Virus record (IMG/VR): IMGVR_UViG_3300006793_000354 | Coordinates: 1-21,131 of that record | DNA length: 21,131 bases | DNA from: a virus | Direction: 5' to 3' (one strand) | Part shown: positions 1 to 18,033 of the stretch, in pieces | Layout: each line of letters begins with the position of its first letter | How positions within the stretch are numbered: the stretch's first letter is position 1 | The notes under the pieces: generated by a model | Database searches by the model: none | What the model was told of the DNA's origin: nothing | Seen by the model: the letters and a program-made list of their open reading frames with translations, nothing else | Made by a program: the position numbers and the translations under genes

Positions 1-1626
1 GTTTTCAAACGTACTAGATACAACATCAGTTATAGTTTTACCTTCAACATGAAAATTACTAATATAAACCTCAACATTAGAGTTACTACTGGTTAACGGC
101 TTACTAACAGTTATACCAGGCCTATAAAGCGTATTAGTATCGAAAGATAGCTTGGTTATATTTTTAGTAAGTATATTAGTAAAGTCATTATCTGTCTCAC
201 CTTTATAATCAACGTAAATTGTCCTGCCGTAATTACCCAATCTACCACGTAAAGTTTTTATACCGTCGCTTAATATATCAAATGCATCTATAGATACGTT
301 TGAATCTTGATAACTATAACCAGAAGCTTCATCACCTCTTATAGATATTGAATTAAACTTTCTACCAGATAAAGGAATACCGGTACGTGAAGTAGTATCT
401 TCATAGGTCTTTTCCAGAGCATAAAAACCATGAGTATCAAATCCTACGCCTAAAATACCACCACTCAATCCACGTGATCGTATATCACCTGAAGCACCAC
501 CAGAATACCCTAAATCATCTCCAACTCCACCTCCAGTTAATGGTACTGTAGCGTTCTGCAAAAACATAGTAAATCCTAGTTCATCATCAGCATTCCAATT
601 TTTGACTTCATAATTAAAAGACCAAGTTATATCATAGGAAGGTGATACACCATCTTCGAAGACTGCGAGAGAAGTAGCAGATAGCGGTAAGGCTGATAAC
701 GCTGGTGATGTGTAAGTTTCTGGGGTATATTTATAGTAATTCTCTAAATTGTAATCGGTTAAAGTATAACCTGAAGCAGCAAATCCTCCAGCTGCGGCAT
801 AATCAGTATCAACATCAGTTATTAGACGATTTATGTCATTATAATTACGTGGTGAGCTTATAAACGGACCAGATCCCACATAGTGAAAAAGCCCTAATAA
901 TATAACTTCGTTATTTTGAAGCATTAAAAGAGGGCTACCTGAGTCACCTGGGGAGTTGTTATAATTCCATAATTTTGCTGTACTATCAGTAGACGTGTTA
1001 ACATTGAAAGTAGAATAACCACCAGCGGAGTAATTATTTGAGTCCGGGTCTGTAAGACTTGCAAAATTTACAACACTAAGATTTTTTATAGAAGCTAACT
1101 CGGATTGATTTGTATGTAATACTAATACTTCATCGGGTTGAGATGCTGTTCTCCAGAAAGTATTACTTATGAAATATTCACTGTTAAAATATCTATATGA
1201 TTCTTTAGGTAATACCTTTAGTACATCAATAGTATCAGGTAAATCGGATTCTAAGAGGGCAATCCCATAATCACCGTATGCAAGAGGGAAGTTTTTAGTT
1301 GCTACTACATCTCTTGTAATAAGTGTATTATCTTTAGTTACAAAATAAATAGTATCACCTGCTATGTAACTAGCGTGCTTGCTGTATACAACATGTCGCT
1401 TTGTGACCGCTGCTCCGCCTATCTCTGTACTCGTCCTATCATTCCACGCAACTATACCAGTTACACCATCAAAATCATAGACCCAGCTGCTTATATTTCG
1501 CGTTAAACTGCCGACTGCAGTATAATCACTAAATATAGCTCTATCAGTAAAGGGACTCTTACCGTCAATTGCAGATAGAATTGAGCTTGTTGTGGTCTCT
1601 TGTAGTAATTGGACTGGATTAGACAT
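1..1626 (-). CDS. Trypsin-like serine protease with L-type-lectin-like domain, 3' end outside window
   Basis: This frame is open from an ATG at 1624-1626 to the window edge, giving 542 residues without a stop; the C-terminus is missing. Residues about 50-270 read as a chymotrypsin-fold protease. A strand ends in VTKRHVVYSKHA (74-85) with His84 where the catalytic His of a TAAHC-type motif falls. GDYGIALLESDLP (118-130) resembles the Asp strand, with Asp119 as candidate. PGDSGSPLL (226-234) is the classic nucleophile loop, Ser229. Residues about 330-540 resemble an L-type (legume-like) lectin: DELGFTMFLQN (348-358), a GGG-rich turn (366-377) and ILGVGFDTHGFY (391-402). There is no signal peptide. 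It is the last gene seen in the fibre block, so a virion-associated enzyme acting on host-surface or capsule protein is inferred. The spacing after Asp119 is two residues longer than usual, so the Asp assignment is weaker than His and Ser. Fold calls come from motifs only. Confidence 0.8.
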   Translation of the reverse strand, partial: MSNPVQLLQETTTSSILSAIDGKSPFTDRAIFSDYTAVGSLTRNISSWVYDFDGVTGIVAWNDRTSTEIGGAAVTKRHVVYSKHASYIAGDTIYFVTKDNTLITRDVVATKNFPLAYGDYGIALLESDLPDTIDVLKVLPKESYRYFNSEYFISNTFWRTASQPDEVLVLHTNQSELASIKNLSVVNFASLTDPDSNNYSAGGYSTFNVNTSTDSTAKLWNYNNSPGDSGSPLLMLQNNEVILLGLFHYVGSGPFISSPRNYNDINRLITDVDTDYAAAGGFAASGYTLTDYNLENYYKYTPETYTSPALSALPLSATSLAVFEDGVSPSYDITWSFNYEVKNWNADDELGFTMFLQNATVPLTGGGVGDDLGYSGGASGDIRSRGLSGGILGVGFDTHGFYALEKTYEDTTSRTGIPLSGRKFNSISIRGDEASGYSYQDSNVSIDAFDILSDGIKTLRGRLGNYGRTIYVDYKGETDNDFTNILTKNITKLSFDTNTLYRPGITVSKPLTSSNSNVEVYISNFHVEGKTITDVVSSTFEN

Positions 1627-1634
1627 TTACGTTA

Positions 1635-1850
1635 TTATTTAATCTGATAAACAAATACCAGAGTAAAAGATTCACCAGACTTTATAGTAGATTTGTGTAC
1701 GAGTTGGTACCCTATTTTTTTAAGCTCATAATAGATAGTTCTAAAGTAATCCTTTTTAATGTTGACGACGAGGCTTCTACGATTCTTATCTTCAAGTATA
1801 AAATCGGTAAATTCCTCTAGAAAGGAGCTGGCTCGTTCCCGTACATCCAC
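1635..1850 (-). CDS. Small unknown protein (71 aa)
   Basis: The reading frame starts at GTG (1848-1850); no ATG is available, because the overlapping ATG frame ends after nine codons and the frame upstream is closed by TGA. An ATTAAATA motif lies 5 bases before the GTG, as at neighbouring genes. The product is charged and appears alpha/beta, with an acidic amphipathic N-terminal half (residues 3-22) and a strand-rich end (FTLVFVYQIK). There is no membrane segment and no recognised family. It lies 8 bases after the 54-codon gene and 8 bases before the protease-lectin gene, so it is probably co-expressed with them. A role as assembly helper for a neighbouring fibre is possible only by position. 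Its length and tight packing favour a real gene. Confidence 0.6.
   Translation of the reverse strand: MDVRERASSFLEEFTDFILEDKNRRSLVVNIKKDYFRTIYYELKKIGYQLVHKSTIKSGESFTLVFVYQIK
1636..1643 (-). promoter_or_regulatory. ATTAAATA start-proximal motif before protease-lectin gene
   Basis: The octamer ATTAAATA (minus strand) ends 9 bases before the ATG at 1626 and overlaps the stop codon of the 71-aa gene. It shares the TAAATA core with the T4-type late octamer TATAAATA. It could be a weak late promoter or an AT-rich initiation signal; sequence alone does not decide. Confidence 0.4.
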
Positions 1851-2052: not shown

Positions 2053-3663
2053 TCAAAGGCCCCATTCAAACTTTATAAGTCCATCAGCGGTATCAACTGT
2101 ATCACCATTGTGACCTCCAGCACCAGCGCCGGCAACATTATCTGATCCCCAGAAAGAGGCAGTACCTCCAACATCTTCGCCTCCGTTGTTTGTATCCCAA
2201 CCACCGCGACCACCATCAATTATATGACCACCTAAAACGTATGCTGACTGGCCACCTGCTAGACCTGTGCCGTTTGTTGAGAGGTTGCCAGTATTAGTAC
2301 TACTATCCGGCACTAATCCGGAGGGTTGAGTAACAGCACCATGAGATCTTGCAATCTCAACTGTATTAATAGAAAGGAATGACGGATTACCTGAAGCACC
2401 GTTGGCACCTGTAGCGCCAGCACCTATTGTAAGGTCAATATCAGTACCGATAGGAGCTGAGAGAATACCAGTAATAGTGGCAGCAGCGCCACCTGTACGT
2501 ACACCTCCCTTTGAACCTGAACCAGTTAACCAAAATTTAGTATATTCTGCTAAAGTAGTAAAAGTATAACTACCAGCATTTGAATTAGCAGTAATACCAG
2601 GTGTTCCGGTGCTTAATACAAGATTACCTGAGAGAGGTGAAACTGCTGAAGTCTCTGCTGTTCCGTTAACAGTTAATGCTAGTGGTGATTTGACTTGAAT
2701 TGTTGATTGCGCTAAACTATCAGGTATTGCTTTAATAATAAACAATGCACCTTTCGCACTTAAGGAACCAGTACCTGTACCAATGTTTAATGTTGTGGAT
2801 CCTGCAGGATCAGACTCAACACCGTATAAAGCAGAGTCGGTATAGTTTGGTAATTTAAAGTTAGTAGCATTACCACCAAATTCAGAACCTATAATAGCAT
2901 AAAGGTCAGGATAAGTTGCTGAAGCAATTGTCTGCCCGTTGCACAATAGCCAACCCTCAGGTGCAGCGTTAGCAGACACATATGGCATAATTGTACCTAC
3001 TGGAATGGGACCTGCAGTAGAGTTAAAGAAGAAAGTAGAGGCTTGATCAGGTACTCTCCATGTAAGATTACCTGATACATCAGTCCCTAAAAATTTATTA
3101 CTACCAACGCCACCAACTGGAAAAGTATAATCTACCGCGTTGATACTTAGCTTTTGCGGTAAGTTAAGATACGTGGTACTATTAGGAGTAATTCTATCCA
3201 CTGAAATATTTGTACTGCTTAAGGCAACTCTACCATTAGTATCTATTTCTAAAGAATTACCCAATGCATCAGCGTGAAAATTGTTAGCAGATAAAGTACC
3301 AACCACAATAGACCCATCTGCATCATCAATAGAAATAGTACCATCACCAGCTGTTAAAATTCTACCAGCCGATAACCAGGAGGATGTAGTTTTGATATAG
3401 AGTATATTACTAGTAGAGTTATGGGCATAATCTCCCTCAACTGCATCAGTTATTGTAGTATGATCTACACTAGAGCCTTTGTATTTGTTACCTGTAACAT
3501 GACCACCAGCTGTTGTCCCATCACCCACAAACAATCTTTTTCCATCTATGGTATATCCTAGCTCCCCTTCTGATAGTATAACATTTTTACGATCTACTTC
3601 ATCTCCTTGTCTTACGAGAAGCTTTAACAAAGTATTTTCTAGAATTTCAATTTTTTTTGCCAT
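2053..3663 (-). CDS. Tail fibre with collar domain and glycine-rich tip
   Basis: This 536-residue protein has three visible parts. Residues about 8-60 form an N-terminal module with ILSEGELGYTIDGKRLFVGD (29-48), shared with the neighbouring 338-aa protein and typical of marine phage fibre proteins, probably for attachment or trimerisation. Residues about 219-275 are a phage tail-collar domain: PVGTIMPYVSANAAPEGWLL (221-240), then CNGQTI, YPDLYAIIG, and FKLPNYT. Residues about 365-536 are glycine-rich with repeated GG pairs (GAGATGANGASG 414-425, GGRGGWD 484-490, GAGAGGHNG 512-520), like the Gly-rich tips of phage adhesins that contact the receptor. A distal receptor-binding fibre is inferred. 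The gene starts 4 bases after the stop of the 338-aa gene, without a Shine-Dalgarno sequence; the ATG directly follows TTAAAACA, as at the paralogous start. Confidence 0.88.
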   Translation of the reverse strand: MAKKIEILENTLLKLLVRQGDEVDRKNVILSEGELGYTIDGKRLFVGDGTTAGGHVTGNKYKGSSVDHTTITDAVEGDYAHNSTSNILYIKTTSSWLSAGRILTAGDGTISIDDADGSIVVGTLSANNFHADALGNSLEIDTNGRVALSSTNISVDRITPNSTTYLNLPQKLSINAVDYTFPVGGVGSNKFLGTDVSGNLTWRVPDQASTFFFNSTAGPIPVGTIMPYVSANAAPEGWLLCNGQTIASATYPDLYAIIGSEFGGNATNFKLPNYTDSALYGVESDPAGSTTLNIGTGTGSLSAKGALFIIKAIPDSLAQSTIQVKSPLALTVNGTAETSAVSPLSGNLVLSTGTPGITANSNAGSYTFTTLAEYTKFWLTGSGSKGGVRTGGAAATITGILSAPIGTDIDLTIGAGATGANGASGNPSFLSINTVEIARSHGAVTQPSGLVPDSSTNTGNLSTNGTGLAGGQSAYVLGGHIIDGGRGGWDTNNGGEDVGGTASFWGSDNVAGAGAGGHNGDTVDTADGLIKFEWGL

Positions 3664-3667
3664 TGTT

Positions 3668-4684
3668 TTAATTAGTTGGTACTTTAAATACAGGTATTGC
3701 TACTACTCCTTCAGTGCCAGTATCAAACTGTATAAACCCTGCAGAAGAAAGATTTACTGAAGCAGTAGTCCCAGCGCTGTTAGCAGAAGTAGCTGCTATT
3801 AATGTGCCCCCACTCCATGGAGCGCTAGGATATTGGTTTAAATAGCCTTTATATGCAGTATCTACCCCTGTTATATTTTGCACTACTGTAGAAGCACGAG
3901 AAGAAACACGTCCATATATATCGTAGTTTATAGCATCTAATGCATTTGTTGCTCCGTTACCTATTGTTGCAAGATTTAAAACATTACCAGAAACATTAAG
4001 TGTTGCGCCTAAGCTACTACCTTTAAGAGCATTTGCATCCACGACACCAGCCGGTACAGAAGCTATTTCTAATTCACCGCTTGGAAATGAGAAAGTGCTA
4101 GTCGCATCGATACTTATTGTTGTACCACTACCACCTTCAATACCGTTTCCGAAAGAAGAAGTATCAATATGGTTTTCATCTATCGTTAATACTGATAATT
4201 TATTAGAATTAATTTGTATAGTAGAGTTATCAACATTTGCGGAGAGTCCTTCAGTTGCATTTAATCCAATTGCACCAGCTGAATATACAGAATCAGGGTT
4301 TAAGTTTCTGGCAGAAATAGCGTTATCAATAACATGTAATTTGTTAGAAGCATTATAATCTATAGTGTTTGTATCTGGCACTGATCCAATAAATCCCCAA
4401 CTCGATAATAAAGAGTAATCAGAACCTGATAATTGGTATAGGAAGTTGTTTTCATATACCAAGTCACCAGTCGTGGCTGTTGCTAAAGCAGTTCTAGAGG
4501 TAATTGATAGTGGTGGATGGACTATATTACCTGTAATGTTACCACCTGAGGTAAATCCATCACCTACCCAGATACGCTTATTATCAGTTGTATACCCAAG
4601 TTCACCTTGCTCGAGAATAACTGAAGTTCTTTGAGCTTCAGTACCTCGTCTAATTTTAAGTTTTACTATTTCAATATCTGGCAT
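3668..4684 (-). CDS. Phage tail fibre protein (338 aa)
   Basis: The N-terminus (residues about 6-55) carries VKLKIRRGTEAQRTSVILEQ followed by GELGYTTDNKRIWVGDG, the module that also begins the 536-aa fibre next door. The remainder is Ser-, Thr-, Asn- and Ala-rich with short alternating strands (for example INSNKLSVLTIDENHIDTSS), as in beta-helical or beta-prism fibre shafts. The short C-terminal segment (FIQFDTGTEGVVAIPVFKVP) could be a small globular cap. There is no collar domain. It follows the 197-aa collar protein by 12 bases and precedes the 536-aa fibre by 4, so the three are probably made together. It probably acts as a fibre shaft or alternative adhesin. The family assignment rests on the N-terminal module and the context. 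Confidence 0.8.
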   Translation of the reverse strand: MPDIEIVKLKIRRGTEAQRTSVILEQGELGYTTDNKRIWVGDGFTSGGNITGNIVHPPLSITSRTALATATTGDLVYENNFLYQLSGSDYSLLSSWGFIGSVPDTNTIDYNASNKLHVIDNAISARNLNPDSVYSAGAIGLNATEGLSANVDNSTIQINSNKLSVLTIDENHIDTSSFGNGIEGGSGTTISIDATSTFSFPSGELEIASVPAGVVDANALKGSSLGATLNVSGNVLNLATIGNGATNALDAINYDIYGRVSSRASTVVQNITGVDTAYKGYLNQYPSAPWSGGTLIAATSANSAGTTASVNLSSAGFIQFDTGTEGVVAIPVFKVPTN

Positions 4685-4696
4685 TGTTTTAAATTG

Positions 4697-5290
4697 TTAA
4701 GCTGTTCTCTTCCATACATACAAACCAAAAGAAGGTGGTATGTTATTATGCGCTGTTCCGCTACCAGCTGGGTCTGATATTATATCATTTACTGGTGTAC
4801 GTGTTGCGTTATTAGAAATGCCTTGACCATACCCATCACCATCTATACCATTAGCATCACTTATAGGTAAGTCGTGGCTATGAGCTGGAAGTTCAGCCAC
4901 TGTTAAGGTATGTTTATATTTTCCTGTAGAATCGTTACCCGCGGGGACTGCTTGTGTATTAGTACCATCGTTACCTGTACCAACACCGGCAATAAATCTT
5001 CCTTCTGCTTCTTGTATCCAGGTTGTTCCAGAGAATCTAACTCCAGGATTTGTATTATCAGCAGAAAATATAACAGCCCCTACAGGGTAAAGTGCATCTA
5101 TAAAACTAGAACCTAAATTACCATCAATATCGATTCCTTCACCTGCTCTACCAATCTTTAATGAACTCTTATTACCAAAGCCATCATATACATCCTGCAA
5201 CCCACTAGCAGGTATAGGCTCTCCTTTAGCATGCAGGACTCCAGGATATGTATCACTAATATTTGTATTAGTTAATGATGTAGTTGCCAT
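4697..5290 (-). CDS. Collar-type short fibre, gp10 C-terminal-like domain
   Basis: This 197-residue protein ends in a domain of the kind found at the C-terminus of T4 gp10 and in many collar-type fibres. It has ALYPVGAVIFSADNTNPGVR (66-85), then SGTTWIQEAEGRFIAGVG, a His motif HTLTVAELPAHSHDLP (127-142) and the terminal IPPSFGLYVWKRTA. The HSH pair is in the position of metal-binding histidines in trimeric collar fibres. Residues 1-60 include a short segment (GNKSSLKIGRAGEGIDIDGN) that may trimerise. It is short for a fibre, so it is more likely a baseplate-attached spike or connector. A TATAAATA late-promoter octamer lies 5 bases before the ATG, so the gene probably begins a transcription unit covering it, the two fibres and the genes beyond. 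Confidence 0.87.
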   Translation of the reverse strand: MATTSLTNTNISDTYPGVLHAKGEPIPASGLQDVYDGFGNKSSLKIGRAGEGIDIDGNLGSSFIDALYPVGAVIFSADNTNPGVRFSGTTWIQEAEGRFIAGVGTGNDGTNTQAVPAGNDSTGKYKHTLTVAELPAHSHDLPISDANGIDGDGYGQGISNNATRTPVNDIISDPAGSGTAHNNIPPSFGLYVWKRTA

Positions 5291-7234: not shown

Positions 7235-10200
7235 GAGTAGTTTTTAAATTTAATATCGTTAATTTTTGTACCAACTGGTAAGATAGATGAGGCTTCTGAT
7301 AAAATACTTGTACGTATTTGAGATCGTACACTTTCATCTGTTATAGAAAGATCGCGTATAACTATATCTATAGAGTTACTTGAATTATGACGATCAAACT
7401 TGAAATATTTTTCTATTTGTGTTTTATTTACCCTCTGACCAGCTGGTAGAGATAATACAATATCATCAATCTTTTGCTCTAATAAATATAACGCATAAAC
7501 TAGAGTAGTACTTATGGCTCGATCGTATACAAATAAATTTCTAACTTGCATATCTTTTGAGTAAAAATATTCCGGCTGTTTAAGGTAAGTAGATAGATCA
7601 GTGCCATCTTGAAAACCAGCAGATCCAATATATAATTCATCTTTAAATATATTTTGTATATGAAATTTACCTGGTGCAAGAGTTAGATTTTGATATAAAT
7701 TACCATCTAAGTATAAAGTCATATTACCTTGAATACTATCAAATCTAAAAGTAAAATTATGATAGCCAGTTAGTAAGGTCGACGCATCAAAAGATATTGT
7801 TTTAGTTGTGTAATCTTCTGAATCTAAATAGTTTTGTAACGTTAACTTAAAATCTAATGTCTCAGCATCTAGAGTTCGATTTAATGTATTGTAATTAGTC
7901 ATTCTTACACCACGTGTATTATTATCCCGCTTAATAGCAGTTTCATTATCACTATCAAAAAGTGGTGAAGCTAATAAGGGTTGTGTACCTATACCATTAA
8001 CTATAAATAAATCTTTGTTATCAGCTTCGCAAAGTAAAACAGGATATTTAAATTGCTCACCACGTATATACTGATTAACATAATCTATCGTTAATATAGA
8101 ACCACTTGATAATGGTGTAGTACCTGTTGATGTTTGCGCGTCTCCAATATCAGCTGATAATCCAAATACTCCTGAAGTATTATATTGGAAGAGTTTGTTA
8201 TCTGTTGCGATATGTATAGTGCTACCAATAATATTAATATCATTAATGTCTGTAGAAGATTTTAGAAACGATTCAGGACCATTTCTAAAATTATGCTTTA
8301 CAACATACTTATCTATTACATAAAATACAGTTTCATCGTTTTCCCATCTAGTTTTAGATCCAGGTAATTTATAATCTACACCGTCTCTAATAATTACATT
8401 ATCATATAAACAAAGTTCGTTTTTATAAACATCAAACTCTGCAGCAGTAATAGTTTGTGACTCTAACGTTAACACATCTAAACGATGCACAGTTCCTGAT
8501 GTATCTATAAAATCTATAAATTCATCTTCTTGGTGGTGGCCAATATAATTAAGAATATCTGAGGCGCATTCAAGTCTTAGTTTATTACCTTGCGCATCAA
8601 CTCTATAAAATAGATTACCGTTACATGCTACGATAAACTCATCTAAAGCACCTCTTTTAAATAAATTTTTTATCTTACGTATAAAGGTTACTTTATTTAA
8701 TAATACATTATCACTATTATAAATGTATAACACGTTACCGCTTACTACATGAATAAAAGGAGTAGATGTTTGATCTTGAAACAATCCAAACCCTGCGTTC
8801 GTGTTGTTACCGAGTAACTGATAGCCTGTTTGTAAGTCCGGATCTATCCATAAATCAAAAGACATTGTAAATGATTTTGATTTATTAATACTTTCATAAA
8901 CACTCAACTTTGAATAAAATGTACCATCAAAGTTGAATGTATTATCATCACAGGAGTAGCATATATTTTGAACTTCACCACCTACTGTTTTTGATTTATA
9001 GTAGTTATCAAATGTAGACATAAGCGGTGATGATGATTCGACTATCTCTTTAATAGTATCTCTACCAACTCTTTCATACTTTAAACCTACACTAGGAGTA
9101 ATAGCTACATCACTCTTCTTATCAAAAAACTTTTCTTTAACTAATAATTCATTAGTTACTTCTAGATCAATACTGTCTACACTGTCAATAAAGGAAGGAG
9201 TAAATAAAGCTGTACTTGATAGAGCTTCTAATTTAGTAATTTTATCAGGGTAGTAGTATCTATCAACCCAAACACCTTGTTGAGCTAAACTACCAGCGGA
9301 GAGCCACGTGCATAGGTATCTACCGTTATTGTATTGATCACTATGAGATCTCCTTACATATAATTTATCTGCTAAAATAGGTGATGGTCCAGCAAAAGCT
9401 CCATTAGCCGTAAATGTTGAATCATTTACATTAAGACGCTCATAAGGATATATTGATGATGGAGCAGTGAAGAATGTATCGGCGCCATTTTTAATTGCTA
9501 TATCCTTATCGTAAAAAACATAATTTAATTGCAGTTTTTCAGTTCCTCTTTCTTGCTCATTACCAGAATGAAGTGTATTATAATCTCTATAATCAAAACT
9601 AGGAATACCGAAAGGCGTATCGAACATATTTGACCCTCGTTTAATAAAGCTGTATTCTGACCTATTGTTATCAAGTGTGAGATAATTTAAATCTAACTTA
9701 TCAGTAGATATAGTATTATAATTAGTATGCAGTAAGTATTGTCCTTTATTATCAAATATACTAGCTGTTGTATCAATTATAAGATTGTCTCTCTTATCTT
9801 TATTATAGGATACAAACGCGTTGTCAATACTAGTAGGTACAGTATCGTTATTATAGTCAATAAAAATTAAATTATTAGAGTTTCTATTTAAACTACTACT
9901 AACCATTTGTGTAAATGTCAACGCGCTACCACTTAACGAAAGAACCTTAAGCTCATCATTAATAAATTTATAGATCTGTAAATATCCATCATCATCAATA
10001 TTATATCTAAAAGTATCTAGTCTTTCACTTTTAACTAGAGATATGTCTTCATCATAATTATAGAAAACGACACTATTCGTGCCAGTATCATAATTTAAGA
10101 AATAATCAGATCTTCCGTTATTATGTTTAATACGTAATAATCTACTGTCTATAACTTCTAATTCAAAATTGTAGTTGTTCGCGAAAGTATTTACATCTTT

Positions 10201-10569
10201 TAAAGGCTTTACTCCTACAGGTTTTTGAACATCTGTTGCAGATACAGAATTCGTATTAAACATATAAATGTATTCGAGATCTTTATCTAACCCTCTATAA
10301 AAAGCTAATTTAGTGGTAACTGTTTGTAGGTTACTTGAATCCAGAGAAGATAACTCAATAAAATTAGATAGTAAATTCTTATCTGATAGATACAACGAAG
10401 AATAATTGTTAATTCTCGTATCTAAAGCGCCAGATAAAGCATTTATGCTTGTAACGTTAAACTGCTGCTCTAAATTAGATTTAGACTGTTTAAATGTAAC
10501 AAATCTATCCGAATATGTTGCTTCTGGGAAAGCTATAGAGCTAACTGATTTATGTAATGTCGTTGCCAC
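7231..10569 (-). CDS. Large adhesion/structural protein with LamG-like and propeller-like segments
   Basis: This 1112-residue protein starts at GTG (10567-10569); the ATG just upstream is followed at once by TAG. Residues about 550-625 resemble a concanavalin/LamG sandwich (KSFTMSFDLWIDPDLQTGYQ, then GNVLYIYNSDNVLL). Residues about 630-860 show repeated strand pairs of beta-propeller type (DEFIVACNGNLFYRVDAQGN and similar). A second LamG-like segment spans about 900-1020 (GYHNFTFRFDS, MTLYLDGNLYQNLTL, MQVRNLFVYDRAIS). GVWVDRYYYPDK (432-443) resembles a motif remembered from other large marine phage virion proteins. The last 90 residues are alpha/beta and may dock to the baseplate. The stop TGA overlaps the next ATG. 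Carbohydrate or surface-polymer binding is inferred from the LamG-like segments; no catalytic site was seen. Confidence 0.72.
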   Translation of the reverse strand: MATTLHKSVSSIAFPEATYSDRFVTFKQSKSNLEQQFNVTSINALSGALDTRINNYSSLYLSDKNLLSNFIELSSLDSSNLQTVTTKLAFYRGLDKDLEYIYMFNTNSVSATDVQKPVGVKPLKDVNTFANNYNFELEVIDSRLLRIKHNNGRSDYFLNYDTGTNSVVFYNYDEDISLVKSERLDTFRYNIDDDGYLQIYKFINDELKVLSLSGSALTFTQMVSSSLNRNSNNLIFIDYNNDTVPTSIDNAFVSYNKDKRDNLIIDTTASIFDNKGQYLLHTNYNTISTDKLDLNYLTLDNNRSEYSFIKRGSNMFDTPFGIPSFDYRDYNTLHSGNEQERGTEKLQLNYVFYDKDIAIKNGADTFFTAPSSIYPYERLNVNDSTFTANGAFAGPSPILADKLYVRRSHSDQYNNGRYLCTWLSAGSLAQQGVWVDRYYYPDKITKLEALSSTALFTPSFIDSVDSIDLEVTNELLVKEKFFDKKSDVAITPSVGLKYERVGRDTIKEIVESSSPLMSTFDNYYKSKTVGGEVQNICYSCDDNTFNFDGTFYSKLSVYESINKSKSFTMSFDLWIDPDLQTGYQLLGNNTNAGFGLFQDQTSTPFIHVVSGNVLYIYNSDNVLLNKVTFIRKIKNLFKRGALDEFIVACNGNLFYRVDAQGNKLRLECASDILNYIGHHQEDEFIDFIDTSGTVHRLDVLTLESQTITAAEFDVYKNELCLYDNVIIRDGVDYKLPGSKTRWENDETVFYVIDKYVVKHNFRNGPESFLKSSTDINDINIIGSTIHIATDNKLFQYNTSGVFGLSADIGDAQTSTGTTPLSSGSILTIDYVNQYIRGEQFKYPVLLCEADNKDLFIVNGIGTQPLLASPLFDSDNETAIKRDNNTRGVRMTNYNTLNRTLDAETLDFKLTLQNYLDSEDYTTKTISFDASTLLTGYHNFTFRFDSIQGNMTLYLDGNLYQNLTLAPGKFHIQNIFKDELYIGSAGFQDGTDLSTYLKQPEYFYSKDMQVRNLFVYDRAISTTLVYALYLLEQKIDDIVLSLPAGQRVNKTQIEKYFKFDRHNSSNSIDIVIRDLSITDESVRSQIRTSILSEASSILPVGTKINDIKFKNYS

Positions 10570-10591: not shown

Positions 10592-11110
10592 CTATTTTTG
10601 TAAGTATGTAATATATGTTTGTTTGTTAAATTTACTCTGTAAGTTGGCTATAGTATTGGAAGTAGATAGCGAATTCATTTGAGTATTGTTAATGGCAAAC
10701 TTTTTAATATTATCGTAGTATGACTCACTAACTAAAGTAAGTGGGTAGTAAATATCAGCATAAACACCATTAGAGTAATAAATTAAAAGCTGAGCTGTTA
10801 GTGAGGTAAAATTTGAAGAAGGGTCTAAGGAAAATTCATGATTATAATCAGTCATCACACTACCACCCAACTTACCATATATAAGCTCGTTAAATATAGT
10901 TTTCTCTTTATAGTTATAAACTAAATCTTTCTTGTAATTTTCTATAGTAGAATCGCCCCAGTTTATTTCTAAGGATATAGCATCATTTACTTCTTCATTT
11001 ACGCCGGTCAGAATAAACTGCAATGTTGAATCTCCTTTGAGATATAACTCTTCGTTTTTTAGAGTGTTGTTACTATAAATTGAACTTAGATTGACGTATA
11101 CAGTATTCAT
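10592..11110 (-). CDS. PKD-like small virion protein (172 aa)
   Basis: The ATG overlaps the TGA of the 973-aa gene (ATGA), indicating coupled translation. Residues about 25-120 have the pattern of a PKD or Ig-like domain: SLEINWGDSTIENY (46-59), in which WGDST resembles the PKD WDFGDG turn, and later DYNHEFSL (88-95) in place of the usual HxY strand, then SLTAQLLIYYSNGVYADIYY. The C-terminal 45 residues are helical and polar (SKFNKQTYITYLQK). This is a second PKD-like protein within about 5 kb. The domain is more diverged than that of the 711-aa protein, so the call is tentative. It is probably a small baseplate or connector subunit partnering the 973-aa product. Confidence 0.65.
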   Translation of the reverse strand: MNTVYVNLSSIYSNNTLKNEELYLKGDSTLQFILTGVNEEVNDAISLEINWGDSTIENYKKDLVYNYKEKTIFNELIYGKLGGSVMTDYNHEFSLDPSSNFTSLTAQLLIYYSNGVYADIYYPLTLVSESYYDNIKKFAINNTQMNSLSTSNTIANLQSKFNKQTYITYLQK

Positions 11111-16194: not shown

Positions 16195-18033
16195 TCAAAG
16201 CCTCTGTATTGCAATTTTACTTGGGATATTTGATATTTCGTAAAAGTAAGCAAATTCAAAATCTTGGAGATTATAGTCTTGAGTTTGTATAAGGTTATCT
16301 TCTAATCTATAATCCGGATTCCAAACTATAAAGCTTAAATTTGGTGTAACGTTATCACCATTTACAGTGTCTATGCTAATAACACCATCGATGTTAAGTA
16401 TATCTCTCGATATATTACCTGTCTCTACATTACCCCCTAACTGTATAAGATCAAAATATTTTAAAAATATGTTAAGAACTTTTGTTCTTATTGAGCTACT
16501 ACTCGCTGCAATATTCTGATCAACACTCAAACGTATAAACGAGTCATTAATTATATCATCTAATTTATCAGGATCGTCTTGTATTGCTGAGCTACCTACC
16601 CCAAAGCTGATAGCTTTAAATATTGGATCTGCAACTACGACATTATGAGTCACGTCCTTTTTATCTATACAAAAATTACTTATTATTTGCTTTTGAGCGG
16701 GATTTAAGTAATTGGGTATTTGTTCGTTTATTACTGGTTGGTTAGACGGTACAGTATAAACATAGACGTTATTAAAATTAGTTGATGTAGAAAATCCTAC
16801 TTGACTTAGCAATACCCGTCCATCATCGTTAGGTCGATCTAACCCGATTCTATTAAAATACCGTAGATATTGGCCAGTGTAATCGTTATTATCAAGTACC
16901 TTGACATCTTTAGTTATATTATTAAAGCTACGATTAATTTGTGTCTCATAATCCGTCTTTGAAACTAACCTGTTTTGTGTTGAAAAGATTTTAGGTGCGT
17001 TATCGCGTATTTGATCAACCGTTTCAGCTTTTTTAACTGGAGTTGATTGATATTGGTTTGATATAAGTATGTTATTTTTATTAGAAGTACCTATAAGATT
17101 TGTACCTTCATCATAAATGTAATTAGATATTGTATTAAACGAAGGTGATGAATAAAAATTAAAGGTAGCGTTAGTTATAGAATTAGGACTAGCTATAGCT
17201 ATTTCATTGTTAGATGTGATATAAAATATTAAAACAGTATCATTAGCGTTTAACTTTCTACCGTTACTATTATTACCAAATCGGAAATCATAGTTTCCAT
17301 TCTCGTTAAACTTTTTTTCATAAGAGGTAGCAGTAGGTGACTCTAAAAATAACGAAACTGACTCCTTCCATTCAGACCAAACCAATGTATCAACATCTTT
17401 AACAAATACTCTAAATGTATTATCTGATATAAACTGCTTATCGTTAACTGTTCTTGTTGGTTCAACTATTTGTTGTGTAGTGAATGTATCGACTAAAGTT
17501 ATAGTTTCATAAGGCTCGCCTATTGCGCTATACCTAGCTTCTGTTATTGCTCCTTGATATAAAGTATTATTACTTACTGATACTGCCTCTAATACAGTAT
17601 CTGTTATCTTTTGAAATGTTATATCATCTAGAGTTGAGTATGTAAATCCATTAACATCTACTGAAGAAAAGCGAGGAACTGTATAAACATTAGAATTTAA
17701 ATTACGTACGTCTAAATTAAAGTTAAGTAGTGATGTTTGATCTCCTTGAGGCTTGTAACCAATATTAGAAACAAGCTTGCTCATATTATCATAAATAGTT
17801 GCGGTATTAAATGTTGACTCGTTAGAGGTAGTATTAAGCTGAAATAGTAATACGTGATACATATACGAGACAACATCAATAAAAGCGCTGAAGTTAGAAC
17901 CTTCAAAATTTTGATCTGTGAATGTTTCGTTCTCGTTTAACCTATCTATGATTAACGACTTAAGACTAGTCGCATCAAAGCTAAGATACGCATTTTTCGG
18001 TAATTTATAATCTGTAAAATTTTCTAAACTCAT
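16195..18033 (-). CDS. 6: Baseplate wedge protein, gp6-like (612 aa)
   Basis: This protein matches the T4 gp6/Baseplate_J-like pattern: FEGSNFSAFIDVVSYMYHVL (43-62), NESTFNTATIYDNMSKLVSN (71-90) and IGYKPQG (91-97) near the N-terminus, then FRFGNNSNGRKLN (250-262), and NRLVSKTDYETQINRSFNNI (354-373), which resembles the conserved asparagine-arginine/DYE segment of this superfamily. Its length of 612 aa is close to T4 gp6 (660 aa). In T4, gp6 dimers link the baseplate wedges into a ring around the hub and undergo the conformational change on contraction; the same role is expected. The ATG overlaps the TGA of gp25 (ATGA), so the two wedge components are probably translated in coupled fashion; AAGGAAGG also lies about 12 bases before the ATG. 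Confidence 0.9.
   Translation of the reverse strand: MSLENFTDYKLPKNAYLSFDATSLKSLIIDRLNENETFTDQNFEGSNFSAFIDVVSYMYHVLLFQLNTTSNESTFNTATIYDNMSKLVSNIGYKPQGDQTSLLNFNLDVRNLNSNVYTVPRFSSVDVNGFTYSTLDDITFQKITDTVLEAVSVSNNTLYQGAITEARYSAIGEPYETITLVDTFTTQQIVEPTRTVNDKQFISDNTFRVFVKDVDTLVWSEWKESVSLFLESPTATSYEKKFNENGNYDFRFGNNSNGRKLNANDTVLIFYITSNNEIAIASPNSITNATFNFYSSPSFNTISNYIYDEGTNLIGTSNKNNILISNQYQSTPVKKAETVDQIRDNAPKIFSTQNRLVSKTDYETQINRSFNNITKDVKVLDNNDYTGQYLRYFNRIGLDRPNDDGRVLLSQVGFSTSTNFNNVYVYTVPSNQPVINEQIPNYLNPAQKQIISNFCIDKKDVTHNVVVADPIFKAISFGVGSSAIQDDPDKLDDIINDSFIRLSVDQNIAASSSSIRTKVLNIFLKYFDLIQLGGNVETGNISRDILNIDGVISIDTVNGDNVTPNLSFIVWNPDYRLEDNLIQTQDYNLQDFEFAYFYEISNIPSKIAIQRL

Follow-up and report, generated by a model that had tools for sequence, protein, structure and literature searches.

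What function might a trypsin-like domain serve when it is encoded among the tail fibre genes of a virus and joined, in the same polypeptide, to a lectin-type β-sandwich? The question is raised by the window analysed here (positions 1 to 21,131 of IMG/VR virus record IMGVR_UViG_3300006793_000354; 21,131 nucleotides), in which a first-pass annotation, made from the sequence alone, had proposed such a fusion.

The fusion gene and its neighbourhood

The fusion gene lies at one edge of the window on the minus strand; its ATG is at positions 1624–1626, and its 3′ part lies beyond the contig end. The missing 3′ end, which the first-pass annotation had asked for, was obtained from a copy that is 100% identical to that of the window, located at positions 8001–10274 of a 45.7-kb viral contig (IMGVR 3300025085_000047, hereafter denoted L001). 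The complete protein encoded there has 757 residues, adding 215 to the 542 of the window. The features referred to below are as follows.

1–1626, minus strand: protease–lectin fusion gene, 542 codons, truncated by the contig end (open reading frame list and identical full-length copy)
757–1626, minus strand: trypsin-like domain with a conserved N-terminal extension, residues 1–290 (sub-cut-off Trypsin_2 match, family alignment, PDB profile search and Foldseek)
1375–1377, minus strand: codon of His84, candidate catalytic histidine (VTKRHVVYSKHA), invariant in 27/27 and 28/28 aligned members
1270–1272, minus strand: codon of Asp119, candidate catalytic aspartate (GDYGIALLES), invariant in 27/27 and 28/28 aligned members
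931–948, minus strand: GDSGSP, residues 227–232, contained in SPGDSGSP
940–942, minus strand: codon of Ser229, candidate nucleophile; Asp228-Ser229 is invariant in 25/25 and 28/28 members where the region is present
697–756, minus strand: linker, residues 291–310, between the two domain alignments
7–696, minus strand: predicted L-type-lectin-fold domain, residues 311–540 (AlphaFold model, Foldseek and at least 79 related loci)
2053–3663, minus strand: upstream fibre gene with Mtd_N and tail-collar domains (Pfam Collar, E 1.8e-18; Mtd_N, E 8.4e-7)
3668–4684, minus strand: Mtd_N fibre gene (Pfam Mtd_N, E 1.2e-11)
4697–5290, minus strand: gp10 C-terminal/collar-like gene (Pfam Gp10_C, E 3.8e-18)
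16195–18033, minus strand: gp6-like baseplate wedge gene (nearest relatives by tblastn are those of cyanophage baseplate wedges, best E 2e-18, 23–29% identity)

The motifs on which the fusion had been proposed are all present in the translated open reading frame: the His strand VTKRHVVYSKHA contains His84, the Asp strand GDYGIALLES contains Asp119 and SPGDSGSP contains Ser229, each at the residue assigned to it, and the lectin strands GFTMFLQN and LGVGFDTHGFY and the GGG turn were also located. From the Mtd_N and collar fibre genes, the gp10-C-like gene and the gp6-like gene, the window is recognised as the tail module of a T4-like phage not previously described. The fusion gene, which is the last fibre gene visible in the window, ends a fibre block with Mtd_N and collar neighbours, in agreement with the earlier proposal that a trypsin-like domain is encoded among phage tail fibres. 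A 71-residue open reading frame directly upstream of it (window positions 1635–1850) is matched by neither Pfam nor PHROGs.

The trypsin-like domain and its sequence family

Searches with single sequences gave only faint signals. Trypsin_2 was matched with E values of 0.021 (the whole window protein) and 0.035, and residues 1–290 matched it with E 0.0042 and 18.3 bits, under the Pfam cut-off of 27.6 bits; this was the best value in the family sets scanned with Pfam, none of which yielded Trypsin or Trypsin_2 at curated strength, and no PDB trypsin was matched by the single window sequence. Of the domain models suggested in the first-pass annotation, Trypsin_2 thus appeared below threshold, and no Pfam lectin model was matched. 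Because no verdict could be drawn from searching Pfam, PHROGs and the PDB with single sequences, a family was built from viral contigs, its members being gathered by iterated IMG/VR scans.

In an alignment of 27 members, nine of the 280 scored columns are invariant (H78, H84, F95, R105, D119, P140, D228, S229 and P232); by our arithmetic, the chance that three random columns would all fall among these nine is approximately 2e-5. A broader alignment of 28 members, which takes in sequences with 16–24% identity to that of the window and has a mean column identity of 26%, retains H84, F95, D119, D228 and S229 as its invariant columns. The order His, Asp, Ser and the GDSGxP-type motif required of S1/PA-clan enzymes are found in both alignments, and a complete Ser-His-Asp triad is, as judged from the aligned residues, retained across the family. 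The choice of His84 as the candidate catalytic histidine holds up, because it is kept in 28/28 members while H78 is missing from one distant member.

The first-pass annotation had remarked on irregular spacing around Asp119. The spacing is a trait common to the family, D-[hydrophobic]-x-[I/V]-x-[L/V/F], and not a defect; every second residue that follows the Asp is hydrophobic, like those in the D-I-x-L pattern of the trypsin Asp strand. Some distant members carry textbook trypsin strings, namely GDSGGP (L110 and L113) and GDIALYEL (L114). The oxyanion-hole residue Gly227 is variable among members, next to the invariant Asp228 and Ser229. In one copy (L009, positions 1079–2653), where the domain is fused to the tail protein gp15, the His, Asp and Ser are kept and GDSGSP is replaced by YDSASP, with loss of the oxyanion-hole glycine; catalysis could be weakened in members with such changes.

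Comparison of the 28-member profile with the PDB (hmmsearch) returned 132 sequences at E≤1, the best being urokinase (E 4.7e-4); the best 60 of the 132 are all S1 proteases or the trypsin-like Umb subunit, and plasma kallikrein, plasmin, tryptase and chymotrypsin are among the matches. An AlphaFold model of the domain, made from a shallower, earlier alignment that left out one row from the phage collection, is poor (pLDDT 47, pTM 0.58). Foldseek with this pLDDT-47 model nonetheless returned S1 proteases with E 1.3e-5 and probability 1.00, at TM scores of approximately 0.32–0.46 and an rmsd of approximately 10 Å; the closest match among predicted viral proteins is an uncharacterised phage protein (E 3.9e-7). 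Both the Foldseek and the PDB profile matches include the Umb1 particle (8w20). A joint protease–lectin alignment, intended for one structure prediction, was dropped because MAFFT had placed the second half of the protease-only rows on the lectin.

Since triad conservation, the PDB profile matches and the Foldseek results agree, membership of residues ~1–290 in the trypsin-like superfamily is well supported by these comparisons, as is the earlier call of a trypsin-like protease. The family resembles the S1 trypsin/chymotrypsin enzymes (PA clan; Pfam Trypsin, Trypsin_2) in the order of the triad, the GDSGxP motif and its profile and fold matches; it differs from them in falling under the Pfam cut-offs, in carrying an extra conserved N-terminal segment, in being inserted in tail proteins and in its variable oxyanion-hole glycine. 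To judge from these searches it is a trypsin-like family outside Pfam and PHROGs, and both folds of the fusion protein are already known.

The lectin-fold domain

The second domain belongs to a family of at least 79 loci in viral contigs. An AlphaFold model from a 38-row alignment has pLDDT 91.7 and pTM 0.89, and the 50 PDB matches listed by Foldseek are all L-type lectins and not generic fibre folds; peanut lectin is the best (E 1e-6), the top matches (peanut lectin, Griffonia lectin GS I-B4, Emp46p and VIP36) all have probability 1.00, and the archaeal legume-lectin domain of M. jannaschii (7elv) is also among them. The model indicates that residues ~311–540 adopt the L-type lectin fold, and upholds the original assignment.

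The phage domain shares with L-type lectins (legume lectins, VIP36, Emp46p and 7elv) the β-sandwich, the GGG turn and the FDT strand, whose Asp397 is invariant in 37/37 aligned domains. It differs in its putative ligand-binding residues, and Pfam returned no lectin match for it. The metal-site Glu of the V-E-F-D strand is not conserved in the alignment, position 395 being mostly Gly or Ala, and the sugar-binding Asp before the G-[FL]-x-x-F strand is absent, residue 350 (before Gly351) being Leu, Gly, Ala or Phe; a Glu or Gln stands at position 349, one residue upstream of the usual position of this Asp. Because these canonical metal- and sugar-binding positions are not kept, glycan binding by the domain is uncertain.

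Association of the two domains

The lectin family was collected without reference to the protease. In 4 of the 79 lectin contigs (window/L001, L033, L022 and L053) the protease lies upstream of the lectin in one open reading frame, in 16 further contigs a protease gene directly follows the lectin gene, and in three it is found elsewhere on the contig, so that 23/79 lectin contigs carry a protease (some are near-copies, and the contigs are not independent). The family was detected in only one of 50,697 phage records (MW202510, an environmental genome; tblastn E 8e-11). Set against this figure, which is a background of phage records and not a formal IMG/VR rate, the association of the two sequence families looks far above background.

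Several contigs share one arrangement, in which an Mtd_N fibre gene and an Mtd_N-collar fibre gene are followed by the lectin gene. Two of them (L001 and L100) encode protease and lectin as a single protein, and in L102 and L106 the protease is at the C-terminus of the following gene; in L017, which has the same order, no protease was found on the contig. A tree of 28 protease domains requires at least three changes of lectin linkage, and there may have been a single origin. Each of the contigs of L062, L063, L064 and L080 encodes two trypsin-like domains, one adjoining the lectin gene and the other in a different tail gene. The fusion had been described as unusual; it is real and recurring, but it is not unique, because the protease domain has been shuffled into many phage proteins.

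Other carriers of the protease domain

The carriers identified beyond the lectin proteins are diverse. The domain makes up the C-terminal part of a gp15 tail-sheath stabiliser (L009; PF16724, E 4.2e-63), and also lies inside a baseplate-wedge-like protein of ~1,100–1,600 residues encoded after gp6 (L007, L008 and L010–L014), and within proteins of 581 residues (L015) and 730–760 residues (L101, L104 and L105); in a podovirus (L004) it occupies a 411-residue protein of its own, with no lectin. A lectin was found in 0/13 of the non-lectin protease records tested, most of which are short fragments. Homologues of a window tail gene (10592–11110) have a C-terminal protease domain with GDSGGP in L110 (1932–3518) and L113 (1298–2779); the window gene itself stops before this domain.

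Two pattern scans, whose reach is confined to sequences sharing short conserved peptides, returned no relatives of the family from bacterial or archaeal genomes. Sinorhizobium phage phiM9 gp102 (L108, 9457–10149), which likewise belongs to a T4-like phage and is annotated as a ‘trypsin-like serine protease’ with Trypsin_2, was considered as a known member and rejected, as it is not matched by the family profile. It also differs in its length (230 residues), in being HtrA-like by our reading, and in lying on the opposite strand beside head genes.

Proposed function

We are inclined, if only slightly, to regard the tail protein as a virion-displayed protease of the trypsin type that would cut where its lectin-type domain binds. 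The protein, which is predicted to run from the trypsin-fold protease domain through the L-type-lectin-fold domain to a C-terminal module, would sit on the virion; the lectin-fold domain would tether the virion to a surface ligand such as a glycan, leaving the protease to cleave nearby host-surface proteins, or proteins of the surrounding matrix, during adsorption. The protease domain itself appears to be a mobile module that phages have inserted into several unrelated tail proteins. That sequences so far apart have all kept the triad implies that catalysis is under selection. The domain has been grafted repeatedly onto tail proteins unrelated to one another, so its function should not depend on which of them carries it, and its recurrent pairing with the lectin fold implies that it acts at a surface to which the particle is bound. 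Its presence in so many unrelated tail proteins suggests an enzyme that is reused from particle to particle among phages.

A broader proposal, which we advance tentatively and would place somewhat short of an even chance, is that environmental tailed phages share an undescribed, virion-borne family of trypsin-type proteases, mobile among sheath-stabiliser, baseplate-wedge, fibre and lectin proteins, that binds and cuts together with adhesins on host or particle surfaces. A protease copy on gp15, a protein located in T4 close to where the tail joins the head, is not at an obvious site for a surface-cutting enzyme, and counts against display for that purpose.

The intact triad would also suit a maturation enzyme, one that, as the tail is assembled, excises itself from its carrier proteins or trims these or their neighbours. 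The placement of the domain at either end or in the middle of tail proteins, together with the adjoining lectin and protease genes, would be in keeping with such a role. We nevertheless think it unlikely: the carriers are unrelated and the position of the domain varies, inspection by eye revealed no common flanking cleavage motif, and in several members (L007, L015 and L101) the domain is mid-way in one continuous reading frame. Splicing into unrelated tail proteins is easier to reconcile with an accessory enzyme on display than with a single fixed step of assembly. S74 chaperone domains undergo self-maturation by other chemistry; Pfam and PHROGs reveal no S74 domain in the 757-residue protein, where the trypsin-like domain is N-terminal.

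A similarly low probability attaches, in our estimation, to a non-catalytic peptide clamp, in which the trypsin cleft would mount the lectin on the particle by gripping a strand of another tail protein. The analogy is with the umbrella toxins of Streptomyces, in which UmbA joins a trypsin-like domain to lectins within a secreted particle and its cleft holds UmbB, binding rather than cutting it (PMC11062931). The architecture is the same in the window/L001, L033, L022 and L053, the Umb1 particle is among the structural and profile matches noted above, and grafting onto many structural proteins is how a connector might behave. However, the UmbA proteins of S. coelicolor have an incomplete triad and no activity was detected for them (PMC11062931), whereas the phage triad is intact and invariant, for which a pure clamp would have no need; the setting is also a phage tail-fibre block and not a toxin particle. 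A chance resemblance, in which a generic β-rich fibre protein carries a coincidental GDSGSP, is compatible with the weak single-sequence searches but is most improbable given the triad invariant in 28 diverse members, the S1 proteases found by the profile and the agreement of Foldseek.

If a displayed, cutting protease is the correct reading, a recurring tail protease paired with a lectin-fold adhesin would offer an added route past protein surface layers, pili and matrix, and would be to proteins what the depolymerases on phage tails are to polysaccharides. Many ‘hypothetical’ tail proteins of environmental viromes would gain a testable function, and the contrast with UmbA, where the pairing occurs without a full triad, makes catalysis versus docking directly testable. 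Phages graft domain types of other kinds, Ig-like and further decorating domains, onto many unrelated virion proteins in the same way; those are, however, binding domains, whereas the protease family carries a conserved putative catalytic triad. A review of the enzymes with which tailed phages cross host barriers refers to peptidases only in connection with signal processing and with the digestion of peptidoglycan, and the word ‘protease’ is absent from it (PMC6116005). We found no description of the protease family or of a phage protease–lectin pair in open-licence articles, and an earlier account may exist elsewhere.

The C-terminal module

A module from the C-terminal region of the 757-residue protein (L001, 9627–10271) is repeated in the next gene (L001, 10277–10756), with 35% identity over 100 residues (E 1e-15). 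In that gene the shared module is followed by long S-V-T-P repeats, and many fibre genes related to it (L017, L018, L020 and L053) contain similar stretches rich in Pro and Thr or in Thr.
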